From Sphingosinicella sp. BN140058 (GTDB lineage: Bacteria > Pseudomonadota > Alphaproteobacteria > Sphingomonadales > Sphingomonadaceae): 64,000 bases of DNA. Positions 2,455 to 60,356 of the stretch are shown here, piece by piece. Position 1 is the stretch's first letter, and every line of letters begins with the position of its first letter. The stretch is taken from contig NZ_CP035501.1 in assembly GCF_004135585.1 (NCBI RefSeq), positions 2,033,001 through 2,097,000 of the forward strand, in the 5' to 3' direction. The translations under genes were made by a program, and so were the position numbers. The notes under the pieces were generated by a model that did no database searches, was not told the origin of the DNA, and worked only from the letters and a program-made list of their open reading frames with translations.

Positions 2455-2495
2455 CGTCTCTCTCCTTCTTGCGGGCGAGAGGCACAACCGGCAGC

Positions 2496-3290
2496 TCAGG
2501 CGTTCGTATCCCTGGCCAGGATCTCCTCGGCAACGCGGTGCGTGCGCGCATTGTCGACATCGATGGCAAGCCGGCCGTCGTCCATCACCAGCGGCCTCAG
2601 CCGTACGCCGAAGCGCCGCGAGAAATGCCGGAACATGCCGTCCACCGTGACAAGCCGGAAGAGATACAGGAACAAAGCGGTGAGGCCGAGCGCCCGCACC
2701 GCGTCCTTCTTGCGCTTGGCGAACTGGCCGCCGTAGCGGAAGCTCTCGGTGGCCGCGAGTGCGCGGTCGCTGCCGAGCCAGAACAGATTGCAGTTCGAAT
2801 AGGCGCCGCCGCGAAAGCGGTAGAAGCGGCGCTGGCCGTCTGGATGGGCGGCCATGATGTCGCCCCGCTCGGCGAGCATGACGATCGTGTCCGCCTGTCC
2901 CTTCGCGCCTTCGGCGACGATCGCCCGCATTCCCTCTGGTGTCATCAGCACGTTGTCTGCGGTGGTGATGAGCAGCGGGAAGCCGGTCACGCGGCTAGCC
3001 GCAACGATGCTGTCGACGATGTGATGCTGCGCCTCGATGACGGTCAGCCGTCCTTGCGCATGCAGTCGGCTGACGCTCGGCTCCTCGGCGATGACCGAGA
3101 AGTCCTCGACGGAGACGAACAGCGGTGCATCTACGAACGTTTCGGCGGCAATGCGCAACACGCGCCCGACCATCGCTTCGCCGCGCACCGGAACCAGCGC
3201 CTTGTGGGTCACTCCCGTCGCGGCGGCGAGCGGATCGAGGGTCGACGACCGCCGGCCGGCGAGAACCAGGATGCTGGGCGGCTGGGTCAC
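2496..3290 (-). CDS. MobA/IspD-like nucleotidyltransferase
   Basis: 264-residue protein of the NTP-transferase (GT-A-like) fold. The N-terminal LAGRR motif with GVTHKALVPVRG follows the sugar-nucleotide pyrophosphorylase pattern LAGG...(K)P, and ITTADNVLM supplies the metal-binding acidic position. GTG 3290 is chosen because it begins one base after the rpoN stop (3292-3294), a translationally coupled arrangement. The C-terminal part has a hydrophobic stretch (GLTALFLYLFRL) and ends in a DGRLAIDVDN segment. A paralogue of similar length and motif order is at 59428-60252. The substrate is unknown; CTP- or GTP-dependent activation of a phospho-polyol is possible. Its place behind lptC-lptA-lptB-rpoN may point to envelope chemistry. 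Confidence 0.8.
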   Translation of the reverse strand: MTQPPSILVLAGRRSSTLDPLAAATGVTHKALVPVRGEAMVGRVLRIAAETFVDAPLFVSVEDFSVIAEEPSVSRLHAQGRLTVIEAQHHIVDSIVAASRVTGFPLLITTADNVLMTPEGMRAIVAEGAKGQADTIVMLAERGDIMAAHPDGQRRFYRFRGGAYSNCNLFWLGSDRALAATESFRYGGQFAKRKKDAVRALGLTALFLYLFRLVTVDGMFRHFSRRFGVRLRPLVMDDGRLAIDVDNARTHRVAEEILARDTNA

Positions 3291-8374: not shown

Positions 8375-8613
8375 TCTGTTTTCCGTAGCTGCTTTTCCTC
8401 AGCGATCCATGCACGACGGAAGCTGCCCGAGCCAGCCCTTCAGCGCAGAGGCGAAGTTTCAATGCACGGTGAACCGAATCCCCTCGCCCATTGCTGATTT
8501 TTGGGTTATTAGAGACGGCAATGCGCCGAAGACTGGCGCAAAAGGCCTTTGCGCGAGCAGCCCAGCGCGGTGGTTCTGGTGGAGAAGTTGGGCGCTGGAA
8601 AGTATTAGACGGC

Positions 8614-9441
8614 ATGGGTTTTGACAGAGGGCGCCGCGGTGAGCGCGGCGGGCGCGGCAGAGACAAGCGCGACGGCTTCGGCGGCGACGACATTTACGGT
8701 GGTGGCGGCGGCGGCGGCTTCGATGATCGCGGTGGCGGCGGCTATCGCAGCAGCGGTCCCGGTTACGGCGATCGCGGCGGATTCGGCGGCGGCGGCGGCT
8801 TCGGTGATCGCGGCGGCGGTGGCGGCGGCTATCGTGGCGGCGGCGGCGGCGGATTTGGCGGCGGCGGCGGTGGTTTCGGCGGCGGCCGCGGCGGCGGCGG
8901 CATGCCCCCGCAGGTCGTCGGCCAAGGCAAGGGCGTCGTCAAATTCTTCAACGCTCAGAAGGGCTTCGGCTTCGTCGTCCGTGACGATGGCGGCGAGGAC
9001 GTGTTCGTGCACATCTCGGCGGTCGAGCAGGCAGGTCTCACCGGTTTGGCCGACGGCCAGCCGCTCGAGTTCACGCTGGTCGATCGCGGCGGCCGGATCT
9101 CGGCGACCGACCTCAAGATCGAGGGCGAGCCGATGGCGGTCGAAGAGCGCGCACCGCGCGAGCCTCGCGCTGGTCCGGGCGGCGCTGCCGGCGGCTTCGG
9201 CGGCGGCCCGCAGCGTCAGCTGACCGGCGAGAAGGCGCAGGGCACCGTCAAGTTCTTCAACGCGATGAAGGGCTTCGGCTTCATCAGCCGCGACGACGGA
9301 CAGCCCGATGCGTTCGTCCACATTTCGGCCGTCGAGCGTGCCGGCATGAGCAGCCTCAACGAGGGCGACCGGGTCGAGTTCGAACTGGAAGTCGATCGCC
9401 GCGGCAAGACTGCCGCCGTGAACTTGCAGCCGCTCCAGTAA
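8614..9441 (+). CDS. Cold-shock protein with Gly-rich arm and two CSD domains
   Basis: 275-residue nucleic-acid-binding protein. Residues 1-25 are Arg/Gly/Asp rich (DRGRRGERGGRGRDKRD), 26-100 form a low-complexity Gly/Phe/Tyr/Asp tract, and two OB-fold cold-shock domains follow (about 107-175 and 205-275). Each has RNP1 (KGFGFV, KGFGFI) and RNP2 (VFVHIS, AFVHIS). The start ATG 8614 fits the conserved MGFDRGRR opening; an upstream in-frame ATG at 8491 would add 41 atypical residues. A long leader before 8614 would suit post-transcriptional cold control. The RGG-like arm suggests RNA binding or condensate formation (inference). A strong terminator follows at 9464. Confidence 0.92.
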   Translation: MGFDRGRRGERGGRGRDKRDGFGGDDIYGGGGGGGFDDRGGGGYRSSGPGYGDRGGFGGGGGFGDRGGGGGGYRGGGGGGFGGGGGGFGGGRGGGGMPPQVVGQGKGVVKFFNAQKGFGFVVRDDGGEDVFVHISAVEQAGLTGLADGQPLEFTLVDRGGRISATDLKIEGEPMAVEERAPREPRAGPGGAAGGFGGGPQRQLTGEKAQGTVKFFNAMKGFGFISRDDGQPDAFVHISAVERAGMSSLNEGDRVEFELEVDRRGKTAAVNLQPLQ

Positions 9442-9463
9442 GCGGACCTCAGCCTGAACGGTC

Positions 9464-9500
9464 AAGGCCCGGTCACTCGTGCAGTGACCGGGCCTTTTCT
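9464..9500 (+). terminator. Rho-independent terminator after the cold-shock gene
   Basis: A 14-bp stem (AAGGCCCGGTCACT at 9464-9477 with AGTGACCGGGCCTT at 9483-9496) has a 5-nt loop and runs into TTTTCTTT. It is perfect and near symmetric, so it could act for both strands. Confidence 0.9.
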
Positions 9501-9535
9501 TTGCCTGCTCCAGATGCCCCAAGCCTGATCAATTC

Positions 9536-9558
9536 AGGTCGGCGCGTAGCCCCGACCT
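9536..9558. repeat. Inverted repeat downstream of pyrC
   Basis: AGGTCGG at 9536-9542 pairs with CCGACCT at 9552-9558. It lies beyond the pyrC stop on the minus strand without a T tract, so it may be a 3'-end stabilising hairpin rather than a terminator. Nothing else is seen in the 9501-9634 gap. Confidence 0.4.
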
Positions 9559-9634
9559 AGAATGTGGATGAGGCTCTACATCAGGAATGAGGGCGGTCCC
9601 GGAATCAGGCTGATCCAGCTGATATAATCCTGCT

Positions 9635-10681
9635 CTAGGCGGGCCCGACATAGCGCCACGCCAGCGTCTCGCCTGCGTGGAACGGCACCAGGCGGGTATC
9701 GGCGGCCGGAAGGCTGTCGGGAACCGGCGCCGGGGAACGCTCCAGAACGATCCGGTCCTCATTGAGCGGCAAACCGTAGAAGCGCGCGCCATGCTCGGAG
9801 GCGAACGCCTCGAGCCGATCGAGCGCGCCTTCCTCGTCGAAGACCGCGGCGTAGCTTTCGATCGCATAAGGCGCGTTGAAGATCCCGGCGCATCCGCAAC
9901 CGGATTCCTTGCGCTCGACGGCGTGCGGGGCGCTGTCCGTGCCGAGAAAGAATTTGGGAGAGCCCGAGACGGCGGCGCGCCGGACGGCAAGCCGATGCTC
10001 CTCTCGTTTAGCGACAGGCAGGCAATAGAAATGGGGCCGGAGCCCGCCGGCGAAGATCGCATTGCGATTGATATGGAGATGCTGCGGGGTGATCGTCGCC
10101 GCAACGTTCGGTCCGGTCGCTGCCACGAACTCGGCGGCATCCCGGGTGGTGATGTGCTCGAACACCATCTTGAGCGCGGGGAAGTCTCGCAAGAGGGTGG
10201 TGAAGACCCGGTCGATGAAGACCTTTTCCCGATCGAATATATCGACATCGGGATCGGTCACCTCGCCGTGAATCAGAAGCGGCATGCCGATCCGCTGCAT
10301 CGTCTCCAGCGCAGCACGGATGTTGCGGACATCGGTCACGCCATGCGCCGAATTGGTGGTGGCGTTGGCCGGGTACAGCTTGGCGGCGGTGAAGATCCCG
10401 GCAGCATGCCCTGCCTCGATCTCTGCAGGATCGGCATCGTCGGTCAGATAGAGGGTCATCAGCGGAGTGAACGCGGTGCCCGCGGCCGCGGCGCGGATCC
10501 GGTCCCGATAGGCTTGCGCCGCGGCTACCGTGGTGATCGGCGGCGTGAGATTGGGCATCACGATCGCCCGACGGAATTGGCGCGCCGTATAGGCGGTCAC
10601 CGCATCGAGCATGGCGCCGTCGCGCAGATGGACGTGCCAGTCGTCGGGGCGGCGGAGAATGAGTCGCTTCGGATCGGTCAT
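9635..10681 (-). CDS. pyrC: Dihydroorotase, class II
   Basis: 348-residue amidohydrolase that closes carbamoyl-aspartate to dihydroorotate in pyrimidine synthesis. The metal motif DWHVHLRDG (His16, His18), the carbamylated Lys in AAKLYPANATTNS, the IHGEV His, FEHITT and FLGTDSAPH are all present, as expected for the E. coli-like type II enzyme of about 345 residues. It begins back-to-back with ygfZ (50-base divergent gap), so both promoters must be compact. pyrE, another gene of the pathway, is at 36732. Confidence 0.97.
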   Translation of the reverse strand: MTDPKRLILRRPDDWHVHLRDGAMLDAVTAYTARQFRRAIVMPNLTPPITTVAAAQAYRDRIRAAAAGTAFTPLMTLYLTDDADPAEIEAGHAAGIFTAAKLYPANATTNSAHGVTDVRNIRAALETMQRIGMPLLIHGEVTDPDVDIFDREKVFIDRVFTTLLRDFPALKMVFEHITTRDAAEFVAATGPNVAATITPQHLHINRNAIFAGGLRPHFYCLPVAKREEHRLAVRRAAVSGSPKFFLGTDSAPHAVERKESGCGCAGIFNAPYAIESYAAVFDEEGALDRLEAFASEHGARFYGLPLNEDRIVLERSPAPVPDSLPAADTRLVPFHAGETLAWRYVGPA

Positions 10682-10730
10682 GACGGCTGCCCGGCTTCAG
10701 TTTCGGTCGCGCCGTGCCTATCAAGGGAGC

Positions 10731-11444
10731 ATGGCCGCGACCACCCTCATCGACCGCTCGCTCCTCCGCCTGTCGGGCGAGGACCTTTCAGGCTTTCTTC
10801 AGGGCCTCGTCACCAACGACATGACCCGAGTGACGCCGGAGACCCCGTCCTGGGCGGGCCTGCTCACGCCCCAGGGCAAGGCGTTGTTCGATTTCATCCT
10901 GTGGCAGGACGGCGCCGACGTGCTGATCGATTGCGAGGCCGACGCGGCGGTCGAGCTCGCCCGGCGGCTGACGCTGTACCGCCTGCGCCGCAAGATACGG
11001 ATCGAGCCGGAGCCGGCCTTGGCCGTGCATTGGGCGCCCGAGGGCGAAGCGGGCGTCCCGGATCCGCGCCTGGCGGAGCTCGGCCGCCGCTGGCTCGGCC
11101 CCGCCGACGCGCCGGCCGAAGGCTGGCGCGCGCATCGGCTTGCGCTCGGCGTCACCGAAGGCCGGGCGGAGCTCGGCTCCGACAAGACGCTCTGGCTCGA
11201 ATGCAATGCTGCCGAGCTGAACGGCGTCAGCTTCACCAAGGGCTGCTATGTCGGGCAGGAGAATACGGCACGCATGAATTATCGGTCCAAGGTCAATCGC
11301 CGCTTGGTCGTCGTGCCGACCGACGGTGCAGGCGAGCGGACGCGGATCCACTATCCGGACCTCGGCCTGGCGGTCGAGCATCGCCGCATCGATGATCTCG
11401 CCGGCGCGATCATCCCGAACTGGCTTGCCGCCGCATTGACCTGA
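10731..11444 (+). CDS. ygfZ: YgfZ/IBA57 folate-binding Fe-S assembly factor
   Basis: 237-residue GcvT-like protein used in maturation of [4Fe-4S] enzymes. The diagnostic signature FTKGCYVGQENTARM with the conserved Cys lies near residues 168-182, and the N-terminal half has LQGLVTNDMTRV typical of the family. Start ATG 10731 follows AAGGGAGC. It is shorter than E. coli YgfZ (326 residues) but close to other alphaproteobacterial forms (about 235-290). Divergent from pyrC. Confidence 0.9.
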   Translation: MAATTLIDRSLLRLSGEDLSGFLQGLVTNDMTRVTPETPSWAGLLTPQGKALFDFILWQDGADVLIDCEADAAVELARRLTLYRLRRKIRIEPEPALAVHWAPEGEAGVPDPRLAELGRRWLGPADAPAEGWRAHRLALGVTEGRAELGSDKTLWLECNAAELNGVSFTKGCYVGQENTARMNYRSKVNRRLVVVPTDGAGERTRIHYPDLGLAVEHRRIDDLAGAIIPNWLAAALT

Positions 11445-50324: not shown

Positions 50325-51539
50325 ATGTCGAAAAGGCGGAACCGCGCCGCCCGTCCGGCGCTGCGCAACGCAATGAGCACAATTCACCGCCTCAACCACG
50401 CGCTCGAACGCGCCTGGGCGCGGGGCCTGCTGCCCGAGCCGCCATTTGAGCGGGCGCTTGCGCGCTGGTCTGCGGAGGGCGATCCGAGCTGGACGGAGCC
50501 GCTCGCGATCCTGGTCCAAAGCCTGATCGAGGAAGCCGATCTCAATCCGCTCGGGCGGACCATGGCTTATGGCCAGATTGCGCGGGCGGTGGCCGCCCGC
50601 CGCCGCGCGGACGCGCTGTGGCGAACACGATTCGAGATCGCTGATATCCGGATCGAGGCGCCGATCGTCATCCTCGGCCAGATGCGGTCGGGGACGACTC
50701 GGGTCCACCGGCTGCTCGCCTGCGACCCGCGCTTTCGCTTCACCCGCTTCTATGAGACGATGGCACCGGTGCCGCCGCGCGGCCCCGATCTCCGGCCGCT
50801 CGCCGCCGCGGCCGGCCTGCGTTTCGTCCACCATCTCAATCCGGATCTGAAGGCGGTCCATCCCACCACCGCGGCAGCACCGGAGGAGGAATTCGGCCTA
50901 TTCAGCCCCTCCATCCACGGCGCCCAGTTCGAGGCGCAATGGCGGGTCCCGAGCTTCACCCGCTGGTGGGAACAAGTCGACCGCCGGCCGGTCTACGCGA
51001 CGTTCGGCAAGCTGATGAAGATCCTTGCCTGGTCGCGGGCCGGCAGCGGACCGTGGCTGATGAAAGCGCCGCAATTCATGGAGGATCTCGATCTGCTCCT
51101 CGAGCAATTCCCGGATGCACGGCTGATCTGCCTGGATCGCGACCCGGCCGAAGTCGCAGGCTCGTCGGCCTCGCTCGTCTGGAACCAGATGAAGGTCCAG
51201 TCCGATTCGGCAGATGCCGCGTGGATCGGCGCCGAATGGCTGCGCAAGACTGCGCGGCGAGCGGATCGGTCAGCCGCCGTACGTGCCGCTCGCCCCGACG
51301 TGCCCCAGATCGAGATCAGCTTCGACGCGATGAACCAGGACTGGCGCGGCGCCGTCGCGCGCATCTACGACTTCCTCGACCTGCCGCTGACATCCGCGGT
51401 CGAAGCCGCGATGGCGCGCTATCTCGCAGAGGCGGAGCGCAGCGGCTTTCGCGGCCATCGCTACAGCCTCGCCGACTTCGGCCTCGATGCAGAAAGCGTG
51501 CGCAATGTGGTTGGGGCGAGCGCCGCTTACGCGCTATAG
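50325..51539 (+). CDS. Sulfotransferase-family protein
   Basis: 404-residue P-loop protein. The PAPS 5'-phosphosulfate loop is ILGQMRSGTTRVHRLLA (about 120-136), and the 3'-phosphate region is LICLDRDPAEVAGSSASL. The family includes bacterial enzymes acting on lipids or glycans; no substrate can be given. Start ATG 50325 or ATG 50373; the earlier begins a basic segment. Ends 7 bases before crtZ, so it may be cotranscribed with it. Confidence 0.88.
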   Translation: MSKRRNRAARPALRNAMSTIHRLNHALERAWARGLLPEPPFERALARWSAEGDPSWTEPLAILVQSLIEEADLNPLGRTMAYGQIARAVAARRRADALWRTRFEIADIRIEAPIVILGQMRSGTTRVHRLLACDPRFRFTRFYETMAPVPPRGPDLRPLAAAAGLRFVHHLNPDLKAVHPTTAAAPEEEFGLFSPSIHGAQFEAQWRVPSFTRWWEQVDRRPVYATFGKLMKILAWSRAGSGPWLMKAPQFMEDLDLLLEQFPDARLICLDRDPAEVAGSSASLVWNQMKVQSDSADAAWIGAEWLRKTARRADRSAAVRAARPDVPQIEISFDAMNQDWRGAVARIYDFLDLPLTSAVEAAMARYLAEAERSGFRGHRYSLADFGLDAESVRNVVGASAAYAL

Positions 51540-51546
51540 CCCGCGC

Positions 51547-52044
51547 ATGTCCTGGTATGTCGGTTTGCTGCTCTTCCTCGCCACCGTCGCGGCGATGGAG
51601 GGCGTCGCCTATGGCGCGCACCGCTGGATCATGCACGGGCCCGGTTGGTTCCTGCATCGAAGCCACCACCGGCCGCGTACCGGCGCCTTCGAAGCGAACG
51701 ATCTTTATGCCGTGATCTTCGCCCTGCCCTCGATCACCCTGATCTTCGGCGGCGTCAATCTCGGCTGGGGCGCCTGGGCGATCTGGGTCGGCGCCGGCAT
51801 CGCCGCTTACGGCGCCATCTATTTCGGCTTCCACGACGTCATCGTCCACCGCCGGCTCGCGCACCGCTACCTGCCCAAGTCCGACTATATGAAGCGGATC
51901 ATCCAGGCGCACCGGCTGCATCACGTTACCGAGAGCCGCGAGGATTCGGTCAGTTTCGGCTTCCTGATCGCCCCCCGGCCCGAGGCGCTCAAGGCCGAGT
52001 TGAAGAAGCGCGGCCATGCCGGGGTAAGGGCACCGCGGGCCTAG
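51547..52044 (+). CDS. crtZ: Beta-carotene 3-hydroxylase
   Basis: 165-residue di-iron membrane hydroxylase adding 3- and 3'-hydroxyls to beta-carotene to give zeaxanthin. The four His clusters are present: HRWIMHG, HRSHH, FHDVIVHRR and HRLHH. ATG 51547 gives the usual MSWYVGLLLF opening. Converges on crtB with a palindromic spacer. Confidence 0.95.
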   Translation: MSWYVGLLLFLATVAAMEGVAYGAHRWIMHGPGWFLHRSHHRPRTGAFEANDLYAVIFALPSITLIFGGVNLGWGAWAIWVGAGIAAYGAIYFGFHDVIVHRRLAHRYLPKSDYMKRIIQAHRLHHVTESREDSVSFGFLIAPRPEALKAELKKRGHAGVRAPRA

Positions 52045-52046
52045 CC

Positions 52047-52073
52047 ATCTCCCCCTTCAGGGAAGAGGGGGAT
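52047..52073. terminator. Hairpin between convergent crtZ and crtB
   Basis: CCCCCTTC and GAAGAGGGGG (52051-52058, 52062-52071) pair with a one-base bulge in the gap between the two stops. It could serve as a bidirectional end structure; no T tract. It resembles the CT/GA-rich arms of the repeat at 38064. Confidence 0.5.
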
Positions 52074-53005
52074 CAGCGTGGCCGGGTCCAGAGGTCCTCG
52101 CGCTCGACCGAATCCCCGCTGCCCGATGCTTTCACCAGCGCCAGCCCCACCGATGCCAGCTTGCGGCGCTTGCGGATAATCACCCGACTGTCGAGCGCAG
52201 CCGCGCCGCGCTGGGCAACCTTGCGGCCGATCGCCCCATAGATCGAGGCTGCGGCGAGCACCGCCCAGCGGGCGCGGAACGGAAGGCGTGGGGCACCGGC
52301 GCGCCCGGAAAGCTCGTATCGTTCGGACAAGGCGGCGAGGCGCCCGGCGATCATGGCGACCCTGTCGCGATGCGCCGGCGAGGCGAGATCGCCCGGCTTC
52401 AGGCCGGCTTCGGCCAGCCATTCGGCGGGGATGTAGCAGCGCCCGTTCTCGCAATCCTCGGTGATGTCCCGGGCGATGTTGGCGAGCTGGAACGCGATGC
52501 CGAGATCGGAGGCTCGGTCGAGGGTCAGCTCGTCGTCCGGCGCCACCCCCATCACCACCGCCATCATGCAGCCGACCGCACCGGCGACGTGAAAGCAATA
52601 GCGCAGCAGATCGCGTTCGTTGGCCGGCCGCCAGCCCGCAGCATCGAGCGCGAAGCCGTCGAGATGGGCGCGAATGAAGGCGTGGGGGATCGCGCATTCG
52701 GCGGCGACTACGGCGAGCGCGTCGAACGGTGGATCGCCGACCGTCTCGCCCGCCAGAGCCCGGTCGGTCGCGTCCGCAATGCCGCGAAACGCCTGCTCAG
52801 GCTCGGCGACCGGGCGGCTGTCATGGCCCAGCGTCTGGCCATCGGTGCGGTCGTCGCAGGCACGGCACCAGGCGTAGAGCAGCCAGGCCCGCTCGCGCGT
52901 CTCGCGATCGAACAATCGGCTCGCCAGCCGAAAGGATTTCGAGCCGCGGCCGATGATCGCCGCAGCCTCCGCCACCAAGGCGGCGCGCTCAGGCGGCGAG
53001 ATCAT
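52073..53005 (-). CDS. crtB: Phytoene synthase
   Basis: 310-residue head-to-head prenyltransferase joining two geranylgeranyl diphosphates. Asp-rich motifs appear as YAWCRACDDRTDG and LANIARDITEDCENGRCYIP. Start ATG 53005 overlaps the end of crtI by 17 bases. Last gene of crtY-crtI-crtB. Confidence 0.96.
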   Translation of the reverse strand: MISPPERAALVAEAAAIIGRGSKSFRLASRLFDRETRERAWLLYAWCRACDDRTDGQTLGHDSRPVAEPEQAFRGIADATDRALAGETVGDPPFDALAVVAAECAIPHAFIRAHLDGFALDAAGWRPANERDLLRYCFHVAGAVGCMMAVVMGVAPDDELTLDRASDLGIAFQLANIARDITEDCENGRCYIPAEWLAEAGLKPGDLASPAHRDRVAMIAGRLAALSERYELSGRAGAPRLPFRARWAVLAAASIYGAIGRKVAQRGAAALDSRVIIRKRRKLASVGLALVKASGSGDSVEREDLWTRPR

Positions 53006-54467
53006 CGAGCATCAGCCCGGCCGTCGCCTTGGCGCTGCCGACCACGCCGGGTATCCCGGCCCCGGGATGGGTGCCGGCGCCGACGAAATAGAGATTGCGG
53101 ATGACGTCGTCGCGATTGTGAACCCGGAAGAAGGCGCTCTGGGTGAGCAGCGGCTCGAGGCTGAAAGCCGAGCCGAGATGAGCGCCGAGATCGCTCTCGA
53201 AGTCCTTCGGCGTGTAATGGAAGCAGGTCTCGATCGCGGCGCGCACGCCCGGCAGCGCGCGCGCCTCGACGATCTCGAGGATGCGGTCGCGGTAGCGGGG
53301 GCCCTCTACCGCCCAGTCGACATCATGGTTGCCGAGATGCGGCACCGGCGCCAGCGCGTAGAAGGTCGAGCAACCCGCCGGAGCCATTTCGGGATCGGTC
53401 GCGGTCGGATGATGCAGATAGAGCGAGGGATCGTCGGCGAGACGCCCCTTGCCGTAAATGTCTCCGAGCAGGCCCTGATAGCGGGGCCCGAACAGGATCG
53501 AATGGTGCGGCACCTCGGGCCATTTGCCGCGCGCGCCGAAATGGACGACGAACAACGAGGGCGAGAAGCGCTTGCGGCGCAGCCGCGCGGCGGCAGTGCG
53601 GCCGCGCTTGTTGTCGCCGAGCAGATCGTAGGTCGCGACCACGTCCCCGTTCGAAGCGATGCCGTCGAACCGCTCTTCCCAGCCGCTGCGGGTCCGGATC
53701 GACGTCGCCGCAGCGCCGCTCGCGGTGATCGCCTCCACCGGATCGGCGAGGCGGAGGGTGCCGCCGAGCCGCTCGAACAGGCGCACCATGCCCGCGATCA
53801 GCGCATTGGTGCCGCCTTTGGCGAACCACACGCCGCCATCGCGCTCCAGCTTGTGGATCAGGGCATAGATGGCGCTGGTCGTCATCGGGTTGCCGCCGAC
53901 GAGGAGCGTGTGAAAGGACAAGGCCTGCCGCAATTTCTCGTTGCGAACGAAGGTCGACACCATCGCATAGACCGAGCGCCACGCCTGGTAGCGCGCCAGC
54001 GCCGGCGCCGCCCGCAGCATCGACCGGAAATCGAGGAAAGGCACCGCCCCCAATTTCTCATAGCCTTCGCGGTATACGCCGGCCGAATAATCGAGGAACC
54101 GCCGATAGCCGGCGACGTCCGCCGGATCGAGCGCCTCGATCTGGGCGAGCAAGGCAGGGTCGTCGTTGGAATAATCGAAGATGCTGCCGTCGGGCCAGGA
54201 CAGGCGATAGAAGGGACTGACCGGCACCAGATCGACGTCTGCCGCGATGTCGCTGCCCGACAAAGCCCACAATTCCTGCAGGCAGGCGGGATCGGTGATC
54301 ACGGTCGGCCCGGCATCGAACGTGTAACCGTCCCGGTTCCAGACGTAGGCGCGTCCGCCGGGCTTGTCCCGCGCTTCGACGATGGTGGTGGCGATCCCGG
54401 CCGATTGCAGTCGGATCGCCAGTGCAAGACCGCCGAAACCGGCGCCGATGACGGCAGCGCGTTTCAT
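52989..54467 (-). CDS. crtI: Phytoene desaturase (lycopene-forming)
   Basis: 492-residue FAD enzyme performing four desaturations to lycopene. N-terminal dinucleotide site AAVIGAGFGGLALAIRL and the C-terminal bacterial-type phytoene dehydrogenase signature near NLYFVGAGTHPGAGIPGV are both intact. The ATG overlaps the crtY stop (ATGA). Confidence 0.97.
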   Translation of the reverse strand: MKRAAVIGAGFGGLALAIRLQSAGIATTIVEARDKPGGRAYVWNRDGYTFDAGPTVITDPACLQELWALSGSDIAADVDLVPVSPFYRLSWPDGSIFDYSNDDPALLAQIEALDPADVAGYRRFLDYSAGVYREGYEKLGAVPFLDFRSMLRAAPALARYQAWRSVYAMVSTFVRNEKLRQALSFHTLLVGGNPMTTSAIYALIHKLERDGGVWFAKGGTNALIAGMVRLFERLGGTLRLADPVEAITASGAAATSIRTRSGWEERFDGIASNGDVVATYDLLGDNKRGRTAAARLRRKRFSPSLFVVHFGARGKWPEVPHHSILFGPRYQGLLGDIYGKGRLADDPSLYLHHPTATDPEMAPAGCSTFYALAPVPHLGNHDVDWAVEGPRYRDRILEIVEARALPGVRAAIETCFHYTPKDFESDLGAHLGSAFSLEPLLTQSAFFRVHNRDDVIRNLYFVGAGTHPGAGIPGVVGSAKATAGLMLDDLAA

Positions 54468-55624
54468 GCGGTCGTCTGTCCTTCCTTGTTGGCAAGGGCC
54501 GAAATGGCCTTGCCGATCCTGACCGGCGGTTTCCCGCTCAAAATGCGGGCTTTGTCGACCAGGGTCGTCTGCGCCGCATAGAAGCGTTCGACCACCGACG
54601 CATCCAGACGGTAAAAGTGCTCAAGCACACGATAGCGTTCCGGTCCGGGCGCCGCCCGGAACAGCATACGGTTGAGCAGCCGATAGAAGCCCCGTGCACC
54701 CCAGAGCCGCTCCGCCTCGCGGCGGAACACGGCGTGGAGCGCGGCGCTGCCGAGGTCGATCTGGCGCGAAAGCAGCAGCGCGTTGCGCGCCGCGTCGGGG
54801 AGCGAATAGCCGGTGGTGGGGTGGAAGAAACCGCCGCGTAGCCCGAGCCGCGCCACCGGCGGGCCGTCCCACAGGCGCTCGACGCGTCCGCCCATCGCCA
54901 CCGGCAGCACGCCATGCTCCTCGCGGACGGTCTCCGCGCGCCCCCATCCCTGCGCGTCGACATAGGCGTCGATACGAATGCCGAGTTCGGCCAGGTCGAA
55001 GTCGGCGCTGAGCCGGTAATAGGTGTCCTCGACCAGCATGTCGGTTGCGGAAAACGGCAGGCAGTAGACGAAGCGATAGCCGTCTCGCTGATCGACCGTG
55101 GCGTCCATGATGATCGGCCGCGCGAGCCCGTGCGGCCGCGCGAAGCGCAGCTCCCGGCCGAGGAAATATTGCCAGCCGAGATCGAGCGCCGAGAGATCGG
55201 ACGGGCCCCGCGCGTCGATCACGCCATCGGCTTCCAGCCTCTCGCCGGTGACGAGGGTGACCGCATCGGGCGCGACCTCGGCGATTCGCGCACCGAGGCG
55301 GAAGCGGTCGGCGGGCAGCGCCGCGCGCACCGCCGCGTCCAGCCGCTCCGAGCTGACGCTGTTATAGCCGCTCTCGAGCACCCGCCGGCGGCGAGGAAAG
55401 CGGATTTCGTGGCTGTCCCAATAAGCGGCGCGAAGCGGCTCCACGAGCGGCCGTGCGGCCGCATCGAGATCGGCGTCGAAATAGGACCAGGTGTGATTGC
55501 CGCCGAAGCGGTCGGCGCCCTCGAGCAGCAACAGCTCGACGTCGGAACGCCGCCCCGCCAGGGCAAGCGCCGCGAGGCAGCCGGAAAGACCGCCACCGGC
55601 GATGATCAGTCTCTTCCCTGCCAT
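54464..55624 (-). CDS. crtY: Lycopene beta-cyclase
   Basis: 386-residue flavoprotein that closes both ends of lycopene to beta-carotene. FAD site KRLIIAGGGLSGCLAALAL, and VEDTYY, LPVAMGG and GLRGGFFHPTTGYSLP mark the CrtY type. First gene of the crtYIB operon; the 57-base gap to the divergent hydroxylase at 55682 must contain both promoters. Confidence 0.96.
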   Translation of the reverse strand: MAGKRLIIAGGGLSGCLAALALAGRRSDVELLLLEGADRFGGNHTWSYFDADLDAAARPLVEPLRAAYWDSHEIRFPRRRRVLESGYNSVSSERLDAAVRAALPADRFRLGARIAEVAPDAVTLVTGERLEADGVIDARGPSDLSALDLGWQYFLGRELRFARPHGLARPIIMDATVDQRDGYRFVYCLPFSATDMLVEDTYYRLSADFDLAELGIRIDAYVDAQGWGRAETVREEHGVLPVAMGGRVERLWDGPPVARLGLRGGFFHPTTGYSLPDAARNALLLSRQIDLGSAALHAVFRREAERLWGARGFYRLLNRMLFRAAPGPERYRVLEHFYRLDASVVERFYAAQTTLVDKARILSGKPPVRIGKAISALANKEGQTTA

Positions 55625-55681
55625 GGCCTAGCCATAGGCAAGCTGGTCGCGCGGCGCCATCGGTTCGTGTAAGGCCCGGCA

Positions 55682-56500
55682 ATGGCGCTTCCTGTTCCCC
55701 TGTTGACTGCGATGCTGGCGATGACCGCGATCGTCGCGTTCCGCTACGCCGCCGTCAGCGGCGCGTTCGCCTGGCTGACCGAGCGGCGCGCGCCCGGCCT
55801 TTATGCGGGACGCGGAGGGCAGATCCGCAAGGAGATCGGCTGGTCCCTGGCGAGCGCCGCAATCTACGGTCTGCCGGCCGGGCTGCTCGCCTGGGGATGG
55901 CAGGCGCGCGGATGGACACGCATCTACTCGAACGCTTCGGACTATCCACTCTGGTGGTTGCCCGCTTCCGTGCTCCTGTACCTGCTGCTCCACGACACCT
56001 GGTTCTACTGGACCCATCGCTGGATGCACCGGCCCCGGCCGTTCAAGATCGCCCACGCCGTCCACCATGCCAGCCGTCCGCCCACCGCCTGGGCGGCGAT
56101 GAGCTTCCACCCGGTCGAGGCGCTCACCGGCGCTGTGGTCATTCCGGGTCTCGTACTTTTCATCCCGATCCATTATGGTGCGTTGCTCGTCGTTCTTTCG
56201 GTGATGACGGTGATGGGGGTCACCAATCACATGGGCTGGGAGATGTTTCCCGACCGGCTCGTGCGGGGTCCCGCGGGGAAGTGGCTGATCACGGCTTCGC
56301 ATCACGAGCGGCATCACCGCGCGTACAGGTGTAATTATGGGCTTTATTTTCGCTTTTGGGATCGGCTTTGCGGGACGGACGACGGCCTCGGCACGTTCGC
56401 TGCGCACCCGCGCGCTGGCGGCGCTGCTGCTGGCGCCGATGCTGAGCGGGGCGGCGGCGCCGAGCGAGGCGGAACTCGACATCGCGCTGACGCTGCGTAA
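55682..56500 (+). CDS. Sterol desaturase/fatty acid hydroxylase superfamily protein
   Basis: 272-residue di-iron membrane protein with four to five helices. His clusters are HDTWFYWTHRWMHR, HAVHHASRPP, FHPVE and SHHERHHRAYRCNYG. The recognised domain ends near residue 235 (FRFWDRLCGTD). The last 40 residues are a Gly/Ala/Arg run that lies over the start of the DUF2141 gene in another frame. Divergent to crtY, so a carotenoid substrate such as ring 2-hydroxylation is possible, but lipid hydroxylation fits as well. Confidence 0.85.
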   Translation: MALPVPLLTAMLAMTAIVAFRYAAVSGAFAWLTERRAPGLYAGRGGQIRKEIGWSLASAAIYGLPAGLLAWGWQARGWTRIYSNASDYPLWWLPASVLLYLLLHDTWFYWTHRWMHRPRPFKIAHAVHHASRPPTAWAAMSFHPVEALTGAVVIPGLVLFIPIHYGALLVVLSVMTVMGVTNHMGWEMFPDRLVRGPAGKWLITASHHERHHRAYRCNYGLYFRFWDRLCGTDDGLGTFAAHPRAGGAAAGADAERGGGAERGGTRHRADAA

Positions 56501-56837
56501 CGCCAACGGTCTCGTTCGCCTGTGCCTGACCGGGCGACCGGCCAATTTCCCGGCCGATTGCAAGGCCGATCCCAATGCGGTGCGAAAGACGGTCGCGGCG
56601 GCTCGGACGCTGACGGTGCGCATCCCCGGCGTCGCCCCCGGCACCTACGGCCTGTCCTTGATCCATGACGAGAATGGCAACGGCAAGCTCGACAAGATCG
56701 GTCCGGTGCCGACCGAAGGGTTCGGCTTTTCCCGCAATCCGGGGATCCGCTTCGGACCGCCGGCCTTCAAGGATGTAAGCTTCTCCGTGGGCGGCGGAAA
56801 AACCGTTCAGACGGTGCGGGTCCGCTACCTTCTTTAG
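56337..56837 (+). CDS. DUF2141 periplasmic protein
   Basis: 166-residue product with a DUF2141 domain from about residue 45: ELDIALTLRNANGLVRLCL, then GLSLIHDENGNGKLDKIG and PTEGFGFSRNP, typical of the family. Before it is an apolar signal-like segment (ALAALLLAPMLSGAAA). The only good upstream start is ATG 56337, which overlaps the preceding gene by 164 bases. Either the overlap is real or an indel has fused the gene ends. Role unknown; the family often lies beside carotenoid or lipid genes. Confidence 0.8.
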   Translation: MGFIFAFGIGFAGRTTASARSLRTRALAALLLAPMLSGAAAPSEAELDIALTLRNANGLVRLCLTGRPANFPADCKADPNAVRKTVAAARTLTVRIPGVAPGTYGLSLIHDENGNGKLDKIGPVPTEGFGFSRNPGIRFGPPAFKDVSFSVGGGKTVQTVRVRYLL

Positions 56838-56904
56838 CCTAGGTGGACCGCAGCGCCGACACAGGATAGCCTCGCTGACTGGTGGGGCCGAGGAGAGAGC
56901 GTTG

Positions 56905-57888
56905 ATGGTCCAGGCCCCAGCCCCGATGGGCGACGTGCAGCTTCGGCCTGCGCCGCGGCCGCCGCTTCGGGTGGTGCTGGCGGCGCCCCGCGGTTTCTGC
57001 GCCGGCGTACGCCGGGCGATCGATGCGGTCACCCAGGCGATCGACCATCATGGCGCCCCGGTCTACGTGCGGCGCGCGATCGTCCACAATCTTGCCGTCG
57101 TGCGTGAACTCGAGGCGCGGGGGGCGATCTTCGTGCAGGAGGTCGACGAGGTTCCCCCCGGAGCAGTGCTGATCCTCTCCGCACACGGCGTGACGCCAGG
57201 CATCGCCCAGGCCGCCGAGCAGGGAGGACGCCGGGTGATCGACGCGACCTGCCCGTTGGTCGCCAAGGTGCACCGGGAAGTCGTTCGCCACCACCGCGAC
57301 GGCCGGCACGTCATCCTGATCGGCCATGCCGACCATCCCGAAATCGAGGGCACGCTCGGTCAGTTGCCGCCCGGCGCCGCCGACGTGATCGCCTCCTCCA
57401 GCGAGATCGACGCCCTCGACATTCCGCCGGCCGGCAAGGTCGCCTTCGCCGTGCAGACCACCTTTTCGGTCGACGAGGCGGACGGCATTGCCGCCGCGCT
57501 CGGTGCCCGCTTTGCCGATCTCGCCGGCCCGAGCGGCAGCGACATCTGCTACGCGACGACCAACCGCCAGGCCGCCTTGCGCGCGATCGCCCCATCGGTG
57601 GACGCGATCATCGTCGTCGGCGAAAGCTTCTCTTCCAACGCCAACCGCCTTGCCGAGGTCGCCGCCGCGCAAGGCTGCGAATCGGTTCAGCTCGTCGCCG
57701 GCCCGGAGGAACTCGACTGGAGCGCGGTAGAGGGTCGCGCGTCGATCGGTGTGACCGCGGCCGCCTCGACTCCGGAAAGCTCGGTGTCGGCCGTGCTCGA
57801 CGGGCTGCGGGCGCGCTTCGATCTTGCCATCGAGGAAATCGGCAGCCCGATCGAGAGCGCCCATTTCCGTCCGGTGCGTGTCGCATGA
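56905..57888 (+). CDS. ispH: 4-hydroxy-3-methylbut-2-enyl diphosphate reductase
   Basis: 327-residue [4Fe-4S] enzyme, last step of the MEP pathway, giving IPP and DMAPP. Cluster Cys lie in PRGFCAGV, DATCPLV and DICYATTNRQ. ATG 56905 (or TTG 56902) has GAGGAGAG upstream. The stop overlaps the ispA start (ATGA), so precursor supply genes are coupled beside the crt genes. Confidence 0.97.
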   Translation: MVQAPAPMGDVQLRPAPRPPLRVVLAAPRGFCAGVRRAIDAVTQAIDHHGAPVYVRRAIVHNLAVVRELEARGAIFVQEVDEVPPGAVLILSAHGVTPGIAQAAEQGGRRVIDATCPLVAKVHREVVRHHRDGRHVILIGHADHPEIEGTLGQLPPGAADVIASSSEIDALDIPPAGKVAFAVQTTFSVDEADGIAAALGARFADLAGPSGSDICYATTNRQAALRAIAPSVDAIIVVGESFSSNANRLAEVAAAQGCESVQLVAGPEELDWSAVEGRASIGVTAAASTPESSVSAVLDGLRARFDLAIEEIGSPIESAHFRPVRVA

Positions 57889-58799
57889 CGACGCTCACCC
57901 TCAGCCATGACGAAGGCCTGCTGGCGCCCTCGCTCCGCCGGATCGCCGACGAAATGGACCGTGCGTTCGATCGGCTGCTGGCGGAACCCGCCGACGGCCG
58001 GGCGCGGCTCTACCAGGCGATGCGCCACGCCGCGATCGGCGGCGGCAAGCGGCTGCGGCCCCTGCTCGTGATCGCGGCCGCCGAGCTGTTCGGGGTTCCG
58101 CGGCCGCGCGCCTTCATCGCCGGGCTGGCGGTCGAATGCATTCATGTCCACTCGCTGATCCACGACGATCTGCCGTGCATGGACGATGACGATCTCCGCC
58201 GCGGCAAAGCCACCGTGCACCGAGCCTTCGACGAGGCGACGGCGGTGCTGGCCGGCGATTCGCTTCATGCACTCGCCTTCGAGCTGCTCGCCGACCGAGG
58301 GCTGCATCCCGATCCCGCGGTGCGGGTGGAGCTCGCGGTGTCGCTGGCGCGCAGCGCCGGTGCCTCGGGCATGGCAGGCGGACAGATGCTCGATCTTCTG
58401 CCCGAACCGTCCATCGGCGATTTCGAAGCGATCGCCCGTCTCCAGCGGTTGAAGACCGGTGCGCTGATCGGCTGGTGTCTCGATGCCGGCGCAGCGCTCG
58501 GTGAGGCGAGCGAGGAGGCGCGGCGCAGCCTGCGCGGCTATGCACGCTGCATCGGCCTCGCCTTCCAGATCGCCGACGATCTGCTCGATGTCGAGGGGTG
58601 CGAAAAGACGGCGGGCAAGCGGCTGCGCAAGGACGATGCCGCCGGCAAGCCGACTTTCGTCTCGCTGCTTGGCGCGCCCGCCGCGCGCGCGCAGGCCCAA
58701 TTGCTGTCGACCCAGGCGATTGACCATCTCGCCGATTTCGGCGCGCGCGCAGAGCTGCTCCGCGCGGTCGCCCGGTTTACCGTCGACCGCGACCGCTAA
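57885..58799 (+). CDS. ispA: Short-chain prenyl diphosphate synthase (farnesyl type)
   Basis: 304-residue prenyltransferase. First Asp-rich motif HDDLPCMDDDD with the two-residue insertion of type II bacterial enzymes; second is FQIADDLLDVEG. VECIHVHSLIHDD resembles E. coli IspA closely, so farnesyl diphosphate is the likely product. No separate crtE is in the window; geranylgeranyl diphosphate could be made here or elsewhere. Confidence 0.93.
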   Translation: MTTLTLSHDEGLLAPSLRRIADEMDRAFDRLLAEPADGRARLYQAMRHAAIGGGKRLRPLLVIAAAELFGVPRPRAFIAGLAVECIHVHSLIHDDLPCMDDDDLRRGKATVHRAFDEATAVLAGDSLHALAFELLADRGLHPDPAVRVELAVSLARSAGASGMAGGQMLDLLPEPSIGDFEAIARLQRLKTGALIGWCLDAGAALGEASEEARRSLRGYARCIGLAFQIADDLLDVEGCEKTAGKRLRKDDAAGKPTFVSLLGAPAARAQAQLLSTQAIDHLADFGARAELLRAVARFTVDRDR

Positions 58800-58806
58800 G
58801 GGCGGT

Positions 58807-59418
58807 CTACAGCCCCGCTTCCACCGCGAGGCGGACGGCGTCGGCCGAGGTGGCCGCGTTCAGCCGCACCAGCAGGGCGGCACGGTGCATCTTGACCGTC
58901 TTCTCGTTGATGCCGAGCGCGGCCGCGATCTGCTTGTTGCGCAGACCGAGCGCCATCTGCTGGAGCACCTCGCGCTGCCGCTCGGTGAGTGCGGTGAGCC
59001 GACCGCGCGCAGCTTCGGCACGCGCGATCGCGTCGCGGGCGTCGGCGTCGGTGACGTCCATCTGCGAGCCGATGAAATAGGCAAGCCGCCCCTCGTCGTC
59101 GAACAAGGGCGCGACCATGACGGCGTTGCGAAACGCCGTCCCGTCGCGGCGATAGTTGAGCAGTTCGGTCATCACCGGCTTCGCATCGCGAATCGCGTCA
59201 CGCATCGCCTGCAGCGGAGCCTCTTCCGTGCCGGGCCCGGCGAGGATCCTGCAGTTGCGGCCGATCAGCTCGTCCTGCGAATAACCGGTGAGCGTCTCGA
59301 ACGCGGAGTTGACCGCGCGGATCGGATTGTCCGGCAGGCGGGGATCGGTGACGATTGCGGCAATCGGACTGAGGCGGATCGAGGCGAACAGCGCCTCTTC
59401 GTCGTCGGCAACGGGCAT
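58807..59418 (-). CDS. LOV-HTH blue-light transcription factor (EL222-like)
   Basis: 203-residue regulator. The LOV domain (about 12-125) has the flavin-adduct Cys56 in GRNCRILAG, FMN-contact Asn88 and Asn98 in LLNYRRDGTAFRNAV and Gln119 in YFIGSQMDVT, all expected of a photoactive LOV. A linker helix leads to a LuxR-type HTH (about 144-203; LTERQREVLQQMALGLRNKQ, EKTVKMHRAAL). This is the architecture of EL222 of Erythrobacter litoralis, whose dimer binds DNA after blue light. It starts 9 bases downstream of the nucleotidyltransferase gene and ends 7 bases from ispA's stop on the other strand. Confidence 0.95.
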   Translation of the reverse strand: MPVADDEEALFASIRLSPIAAIVTDPRLPDNPIRAVNSAFETLTGYSQDELIGRNCRILAGPGTEEAPLQAMRDAIRDAKPVMTELLNYRRDGTAFRNAVMVAPLFDDEGRLAYFIGSQMDVTDADARDAIARAEAARGRLTALTERQREVLQQMALGLRNKQIAAALGINEKTVKMHRAALLVRLNAATSADAVRLAVEAGL

Positions 59419-59427
59419 GGAGCTCCT

Positions 59428-60252
59428 TTAGCCTGCGCTTGTGCCGGTTGACAAACCGCGCCCTTGCGCCGGTTCGCGTGCGGCAACAATGCTTTGGACG
59501 AGCGCCAGATCCGCAGGCTTGTCGACATCGATCGCCGCCTCCGCGAATGGCAACCGCACGGGCTTGAGATCGAGCCCGAGCGACCGTCCGGCCCTGGCGG
59601 CGGCCTTGGGCAGGGAGATCGTGCGGGTGAAGGCACGCAGGAACAGCATCGGCCCGAAAAAGGTGAGGAGCTTAAGCGCCTTTTTCCGCTCCTTCTCGAC
59701 GCGTCCCCAGAAATCCAGGGTCGCGCGGCCGGCCGGGGTGGCCAGCGCGAACAGGTTCGCACCGGAAAAATGCCCGTCGGAGAATTTGAGCCAGGTCCGC
59801 TTCGTCTCGGGGTAGGCCGCTTCCACCGTGGTCCGGTCCGCCACCGCGAACGCCACGTCCGCGCCCGCCGCGCCGGCGAGGAATGTCTCGACCATGTCGA
59901 CGGACAGCAAGGCATGGTCGGCGGTGGCGATCAGCACCGGCCAGGGCGCGACGTCGCCGCCCGCAATCGCCGCGATGCTCGCGGAGATGCCGTCACCCGC
60001 CGGGGCGGTGCGGATTCGTGCCGAGTCTCCGATCCACGGCGCGATATCGGCGAGCAGGGCGTCGGGCGACTGGGCGAGAATGACGATCCGCGCGACGGAG
60101 GGGCAATCGAGCAAGGTCGCCGCCACTCTTGCGAGCATCGGCACGCCGCCGACCGGGATCAGCGCCTTGGCGCGGACATTCTGGCTCGCCGCAAAGGCGG
60201 ACTCGCCGGGCCTTTCCCCCGCCAGAACGATCGCCGTCCAATCCGATGCCAC
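59428..60252 (-). CDS. MobA-like nucleotidyltransferase (paralogue)
   Basis: 274-residue NTP transferase. Nucleotide loop WTAIVLAGERPGE, then KALIPVGGVPML, metal Asp in IATADHALL, and GANLFALATPAGRATLDFW. It shares order and several phrases (KAL.PV.G..M, the TADN/TADH motif, NLF and a KKA hydrophobic LF..R segment) with the gene at 2496-3290. Start is set at GTG 60252, since a longer form would overlap the divergent gene at 60357. Cotranscribed with the LOV-HTH gene. With the LicC-like, HIT and CDP-alcohol transferase genes it suggests head-group activation. Confidence 0.82.
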   Translation of the reverse strand: MASDWTAIVLAGERPGESAFAASQNVRAKALIPVGGVPMLARVAATLLDCPSVARIVILAQSPDALLADIAPWIGDSARIRTAPAGDGISASIAAIAGGDVAPWPVLIATADHALLSVDMVETFLAGAAGADVAFAVADRTTVEAAYPETKRTWLKFSDGHFSGANLFALATPAGRATLDFWGRVEKERKKALKLLTFFGPMLFLRAFTRTISLPKAAARAGRSLGLDLKPVRLPFAEAAIDVDKPADLALVQSIVAAREPAQGRGLSTGTSAG

Positions 60253-60356
60253 CAAGCCCAACTGCCTTCCCGTCACGAAGTGATCGTAAAAATGACGCAA
60301 TTGGCTGCACAAGCACGCAAGTTGCGGTAGCGCAACGCATCTTTCCGGACTTGGAC

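Follow-up and report, generated by a model that had tools for sequence, protein, structure and literature searches.

A gene for an EL222-type LOV-HTH protein, a putative blue-light transcription factor, lies between isoprenoid and carotenoid genes on one side and a nucleotidyltransferase gene on the other, and it is of interest which of these neighbours it controls. A sequence-only reading of this locus had suggested that light could set either isoprenoid flow or head-group synthesis. We examined the 64-kb stretch of DNA that carries the gene (the window; G000:C1:2033001-2097000, from a genome of 6.07 Mb in 2 contigs) together with related loci (L) and genomes (G) from the same genus and family. 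Our best explanation is that the LOV-HTH protein controls ispH2, a second ispH gene, in one direction or the other and through presumed binding of a site upstream of it, to which we assign a probability of about two in three.

A domain search of the LOV-HTH protein returned PAS_9 (E 9e-17) and the GerE/LuxR HTH (PF00196, E 4e-17). Its homology to EL222 spans both domains, the N-terminal LOV and the C-terminal LuxR/GerE HTH, and the top solved-structure matches are EL222 itself (8a5r and 3p7n, E ~1e-65, alignment over residues 13-203), with identity at 55% (105 of 191 aligned positions). The description of the protein as an EL222-like LOV-HTH is thus borne out. The residues named for it, Cys56, Asn88, Asn98 and Gln119, are present as described and are invariant in all 68 of 68 aligned rows. 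EL222 and the window protein also share the recognition-helix string EKTVKMHR, which occurs exactly in 39 of the 68 rows. We consider it nearly certain that this is a sensor protein and, by analogy with EL222, it would be expected to bind flavin and respond to light. In a tree of the 68 LOV-HTH proteins, nine of the 11 isp/crt-linked rows group in one 21-row set (support 97/97), apart from EL222; the other 12 rows of this set, L035 among these, have no isp/crt link, and the remaining two linked rows (L059 and L088) fall elsewhere. The LOV-HTH protein of locus L068 (G219) is identical to EL222 over the aligned part. The window genome encodes a second LOV-HTH protein, 61% identical (G000:C1:5024965-5025558, L040), near genes for a UvdE-type UV endonuclease and a 2-hydroxyacid dehydrogenase.

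The gene order over positions 51487-59418 is crtZ-like (+), crtB-like, crtI and crtY (-), FA_hydroxylase-type, DUF2141, ispH2 and ispA2 (+), then LOV-HTH (-), with ispA2 and the LOV-HTH gene tail to tail and 7 bp between their stop codons (Table 1). The distances claimed from the LOV-HTH gene to ispH-ispA and to the crt genes were correct. The identification of the cluster as crtYIB/crtZ held in part: crtY and crtI score over their model cut-offs, whereas the crtB-like gene falls below the CrtB cut-off and the crtZ candidate matches only as an FA_hydroxylase-type protein. A DUF2141 gene was present in 17 of 21 isp/crt-linked loci, with or without LOV-HTH.

Table 1. Features of the locus in window coordinates, with the basis of each assignment.
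Feature	Position	Strand	Basis or remark
Short FA_hydroxylase-type protein, crtZ-like	51487-52044	+	PF04116; crtZ label from position and size, no CrtZ model
crtB-like phytoene synthase	52073-53005	-	SQS_PSY; best model CrtB, score below its cut-off
crtI, phytoene desaturase family	52989-54467	-	Above model cut-off
crtY, lycopene beta-cyclase	54464-55624	-	Above model cut-off
FA_hydroxylase-type protein, crt cluster	55682-56500	+	Domain match
DUF2141 protein, frequent neighbour 5' of ispH2	56337-56837	+	Domain match
Candidate LOV-HTH operator CTTTAGCCTAGGTGGA	56832-56847	+	Overlaps DUF2141 stop TAG 56835-56837; upstream of ispH2
Putative -10 element GATAGC	56865-56870	+	Inferred from spacing
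ispH2, second, crt-linked HMBPP reductase paralogue	56902-57888	+	ATG alternative at 56905
ispA2, second, crt-linked prenyl diphosphate synthase	57885-58799	+	FPP synthase subfamily model; possible GGPP synthase
LOV-HTH (EL222-type) putative blue-light transcription factor, 203 aa	58807-59418	-	ORF, domain and structure matches
MobA-like nucleotidyltransferase; probable first cistron, followed by LOV-HTH, in three loci of this lineage	59428-60252	-	NTP_transf_3, PF12804, E 4e-12

Each isp gene has another copy in the window genome, an ispH at C1:5667474 (46% identical to ispH2) and an ispA at C1:1064998 (64% identical to ispA2). The product of ispH2 carries a LYTB domain (PF02401, E 9e-83) and separates from four canonical rows in the tree with support 100/100; its C117 and C216 are invariant and C33 is conserved in at least 90% of 10 rows, and we take these to be the three cluster ligands. 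At E <= 1e-95, ispH2 was found in 14 of 397 family genomes; further copies came from the LOV-HTH loci of genus genomes G001, G011, G014, G019 and G020, and a partial copy from G091.

IspA2 passes the NCBIfam FPP synthase subfamily model (293 vs 275) and fails the CrtE equivalog model NF045685 (238 bits vs a cut-off of 460). Five residues before the first Asp-rich motif it has His in place of Tyr; the crt-cluster IspA copies listed carry His or Gln at this position, and the canonical L051 (G000) and L050 (G017) carry Tyr. Replacement of Tyr81 by His in a Bacillus FPP synthase reportedly gave GGPP; a literature search for Y81H in prenyl synthases returned no paper. The residue affects chain length in related enzymes: the Y90A variant of a fungal FPP synthase acts as an FPP/GGPP synthase (PMC11048977), and S88Y converts a GGPP synthase to FPP synthesis (PMC7261888). 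Neither His nor Gln is a small residue, and both differ from the variants described there. The presence of His or Gln for Tyr at the chain-length position suggests that IspA2 may make GGPP, which on balance we slightly favour as its product, and we word this as a prediction because the NCBIfam CrtE model is not passed.

We analysed how far the association of these genes extends. LOV-HTH genes (E <= 1e-40) were present in 12 of 26 genus genomes, at 15 places in total, around which at most 20 kb was read except in the 64-kb window; across the family, 49 of the 199 genomes sampled had LOV-HTH, with 52 loci outside the window genome. An ispH lies in the LOV-HTH locus at six of the 15 genus loci (the window, L034, L036, L037, L038 and L039), five of which also contain ispA and at least one crt gene, and at four of the 52 other family loci (L054, L056, L059 and L067). 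Family locus L088 combines LOV-HTH with crt genes and an ispA, and L098 and L102 have solely a 40-41% crtI match. Wherever ispA2 and LOV-HTH are adjacent (the window, L034, L036, L037, L039 and L056) the two genes are convergent, their stop codons being no more than 20 bp apart in five of the six loci and separated by ~155 bp in L034. No crtB, crtI or crtY lies in the stretches read around ispH2 and LOV-HTH in L054 and L067 (20 and 15.4 kb), and the firm link of LOV-HTH is therefore to ispH2 rather than to the crt genes. Since ten ispH2 clusters have no LOV-HTH nearby, the sensor is dispensable for the pathway. Missing neighbours mean little at L037, L042, L044, L047, L071, L104 and L105, which are short contigs or lie near contig ends; at G278, G309, G339 and G379 the absence of LOV-HTH applies to the 20 kb read, and a genome-wide search at E <= 1e-40 gave no LOV-HTH match in G017, G003, G021, G032, G081 and G104.

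Three loci near crt genes encode an IspH-IspA fusion of 623-629 residues (LYTB plus polyprenyl_synt; L141 of G104, 9034-10917; L142 of G032, 8601-10469; L143 of G081, 8523-10409). Beside the fused gene of G104 lies an HTH-only ORF without a LOV domain (L141, 8647-8985), 48-68% like the HTHs of LOV-HTH proteins in the rows listed, which is possibly the remnant of a lost light sensor. In G339, a LOV histidine kinase gene (L245, 18304-19443) lies ~1 kb from a crtZ-like gene, in a 20-kb stretch with no LOV-HTH.

Comparison of the DNA upstream of ispH2 revealed a block that begins in the last DUF2141 codons and reads CTTTAGCCTAGGTGGACC in the window and L034, CTTTAGTCTAGGTGGATC in L036, CTTTAGTCCATGTGGCTC in L037, CTTTAGGCCATGTGGATT in L039, CTTTAGTCCATGTGGACG in L054 and CTTTAGGCCATGTGGAGC in L067, with a weak version in L056. 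The element that it defines, CTTTAGNCYAKGTGGM, lies just upstream of ispH2 in seven of the ten loci where LOV-HTH and ispH2 are adjacent or close and in none of the ten without LOV-HTH in the stretch read (p ~0.0015, Fisher's test); the element was discovered in the first group, so that neither this co-occurrence nor the family-wide count is an independent test. We scored the sites with a matrix from which L034, a near copy of the window, was excluded, as it was from the column counts; its leave-one-out form also excludes L056. The seven sites gave leave-one-out scores of 21.9-27.2, reached by 0 of 200 shuffles per locus. The three loci counted as LOV-linked without the element scored 8.1 (L056), 6.6 (L145) and -3.2 (L038, from a genome that is 68% complete and with an ispH match that lacks the N-terminus). 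The full element is absent at the ten ispH2 loci without LOV-HTH (L140-L143 and L244-L249), where scores did not exceed 6.1, and the canonical ispH promoter of the window genome scored 2.8. Further downstream, a TA at offset 35-36 marks the sole positions again common to seven of seven compared sequences (L034 left out, L056 included), and this fixed offset suggests a -10 box.

The exact CTTTAGNCYAKGTGGM pattern was found in four of 397 genomes, once in each. Three of these sites are at ispH2 beside LOV-HTH (G000, G210 and G101), and the fourth, in G189, lies in an 11-kb stretch that contains no probed gene. The window genome has no exact match other than the ispH2 site, and four further sites differ by two mismatches. 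The pattern is not enriched by number, since the reversed control gave 20 matches vs 5 in the window genome and ~27 vs 4 across the 397 genomes, and when one mismatch is allowed, matches are spread across 57 of 199 genomes. The weight of the element lies in its location, not its number. Within the window, four matches occur at up to three mismatches (1.08 expected; 3 of 100 shuffles reach four), the ispH2 site alone being exact. A matrix scan of the window and L034-L105 gave 25.1-28.9 for the seven ispH2 sites and 18.7 for L056 with a matrix that contained these sites; at a threshold of 9.5 the scan gave 133 matches vs 113 for the reversed control (best control 18.6), and the weaker matches mean nothing. 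No consistent element-like site was present in the DNA upstream of crtY, crtZ, crtB, FA_hydroxylase, LOV-HTH or NTPu. The isolated weaker sites there were matched by none of 60 shuffles for crtZ of L036 and crtY of L039, by one for crtY of L036 and by two for LOV-HTH of L034.

Coding constraint on the end of DUF2141 is a less likely cause of the element, as conservation continues past the stop codon and DUF2141 ends differ with LOV-HTH linkage. Six compared LOV-linked genes (L034 not counted) end in CTT-TAG, and the six readable genes without LOV-HTH (L140, L142, L244, L245, L246 and L248) have different endings, TAG being the stop codon in one of them too.

The EL222 operator C120 is given as TAGGTAGCCTTTAGTCCATG in PMC10521638. 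The sites of L054 and L037 share 13 and 12 nucleotides with it, respectively, and the upstream regions of the other five no more than 8. The window site differs from the published EL222 consensus RGNCYWWRGNCY by at least two mismatches; AGCCT and GGACC, its half-sites, are 4 nucleotides apart vs 2 in the consensus. A strict consensus scan of the window gave four exact sites (each on both strands), about the number estimated from base composition, and is uninformative alone. Taken with the recurrent linkage to ispH2, the conserved candidate operator before this gene supports the suggested connection to isoprenoid flow.

These observations can be assembled into a mechanism. Light would generate a flavin-Cys56 adduct in the LOV-HTH protein, and the adduct would free the HTH and allow dimerisation and DNA binding, as in EL222, for which dark-state occlusion of the HTH and light-driven dimerisation and binding are described in PMC4844311 and PMC4428443. 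The LOV-HTH dimer would then occupy positions 56832-56847, alongside the -35 region of the promoter that ispH2 and ispA2 share, with activation as the most likely outcome. IspH catalyses the last step to IPP and DMAPP. IspH2 would provide extra IPP/DMAPP, from which IspA2, lacking the canonical Tyr, may make FPP/GGPP for the adjacent crtB-crtI-crtY pathway; a dedicated ispH copy and a prenyl synthase raised together would thereby feed phytoene synthesis. Carotenoids protect against light, and a light-driven supply of their precursors would therefore be coherent. We entertain, at somewhat less than even odds, the fuller proposal that the two genes form a private late-MEP/GGPP module and a natural target of the EL222 class, in which light gates carbon entry at the second IspH and an FPP-to-GGPP-shifted synthase, not at the crt genes.

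Should the LOV-HTH protein control ispH2, activation is our presumed direction, by about 2:1 over repression. The same site would also serve a light-bound protein that blocks the ispH2 promoter, an outcome contained within control of ispH2 that we regard as unlikely. The element is close to or over the expected -35 position, which fits repression, as does the repression described for an EL222 operator that sits between -35 and -10 (PMC9614035). Activation is favoured by the location of the EL222-like half, a short way upstream of the inferred -35; if transcription starts ~7 bp after the -10 element, this half would be centred near -42, where LuxR-type activators bind. Against repression also stands the induction of carotenoid production by light in LitR/CarH systems (PMC9758184).

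In a second alternative, the element belongs to the core promoter or is bound by a different regulator, the LOV-HTH gene being carried along in the cluster and its product acting elsewhere. Its right end, GTGGACG after the DUF2141 stop, is kept in three loci without LOV-HTH (L244, L245 and L246), and this part may therefore be promoter, or a remnant. The absence of the element from three LOV-linked loci and the failure of the window site to match the strict EL222 consensus point the same way. We nevertheless consider this alternative improbable, given that the full element is missing from all ten ispH2 loci without LOV-HTH and that 12-13 nucleotides of C120 recur in two orthologous sites. The history of the element is compatible with more than one course. 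In the ispH2 tree the element-bearing rows are interspersed with rows without LOV-HTH and need five changes, forming one group in 0% of 200 bootstrap trees; the well-supported branches are compatible with a single origin, and an old element lost together with LOV-HTH fits too.

There remains the nucleotidyltransferase. The gene order claimed for it and LOV-HTH is real, and the gap of 9 bp between the nucleotidyltransferase end and the LOV-HTH ATG makes co-transcription plausible. The two nearest relatives (L034 and L035) retain the pairing, which was seen in none of the loci beyond, whereas the isp linkage reaches further. The nucleotidyltransferase is also more widespread, occurring in 123 of 199 genomes at E <= 1e-25, vs 49 of 199 for LOV-HTH at E <= 1e-40. 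We rejected it as the LOV-HTH partner on this distribution: despite adjacency and probable co-transcription in three loci, it is very improbable that LOV-HTH targets the nucleotidyltransferase/CDP-alcohol phosphotransferase block, the pair being limited to 3 of 15 genus loci (missing in 12) and 0 of 52 other family loci, the same NTP-transferase/HIT/CDP-alcohol block with nucleotidyltransferase existing without LOV-HTH in L053, and no operator-like site being found upstream of the nucleotidyltransferase in the window or L034. Control of head-group synthesis by light thus went unsupported. The divergent nucleotidyltransferase/NTP-transferase promoter region (60253-60356) contains an inverted repeat, GTTGCG-N4-CGCAAC, which by eye is also present in L034 and L035 and was not seen in L053, a locus without LOV-HTH. 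A second MobA-like nucleotidyltransferase paralogue, 33% identical and with one in-frame TGA in the matched stretch, lies at 2484-3272.

Flavin-binding LOV-HTH proteins and light-induced carotenogenesis are already known. EL222 of Erythrobacter litoralis HTCC2594 resembles the window protein in domain order, adduct residues, EKTVKMHR and, possibly, a related operator; the window protein differs in belonging to the separate, well-supported 21-row set, and the locus of the EL222-identical protein (L068), unlike the window, has no probed isp/crt genes in its 20-kb stretch. One review gives DNA binding as the sole role of EL222 (PMC4844311), and a high-affinity EL222 site was obtained by ChIP-seq and SELEX (Rivera-Cancel 2012, as cited in PMC4428443). 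The B12-dependent LitR/CarH systems likewise induce carotenoid production by light, in non-phototrophs, as outlined in PMC9758184; LitR/CarH is a B12-binding MerR-type regulator, whereas the window encodes a predicted flavin protein with its candidate site before ispH2 and not before the crt genes. LOV proteins also control pigment or neighbouring genes in Dinoroseobacter shibae (LdaP) and Pseudomonas mendocina (PmSB-LOV/PmlR2), as described in PMC10890935 and PMC9758184; these act through a separate DNA-binding partner (PpsR and PmlR2, respectively), whereas in the window LOV and HTH are in one protein. Searches of the open-licence PMC literature turned up no paper that connects an EL222-class regulator with ispH or carotenoid genes, and Rivera-Cancel 2012 may name native EL222 targets. 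What is new here is the conserved element before ispH2 and its co-occurrence with LOV-HTH.

Although EL222 is a popular optogenetic tool, the literature consulted here names no physiological target for it. The elements upstream of ispH2 would offer native operator variants. A conserved element near the LOV-HTH gene and before specific metabolic genes would constitute a directly testable natural target for this class of regulators, and suggests that light could set the supply of precursors rather than the pigment enzymes.
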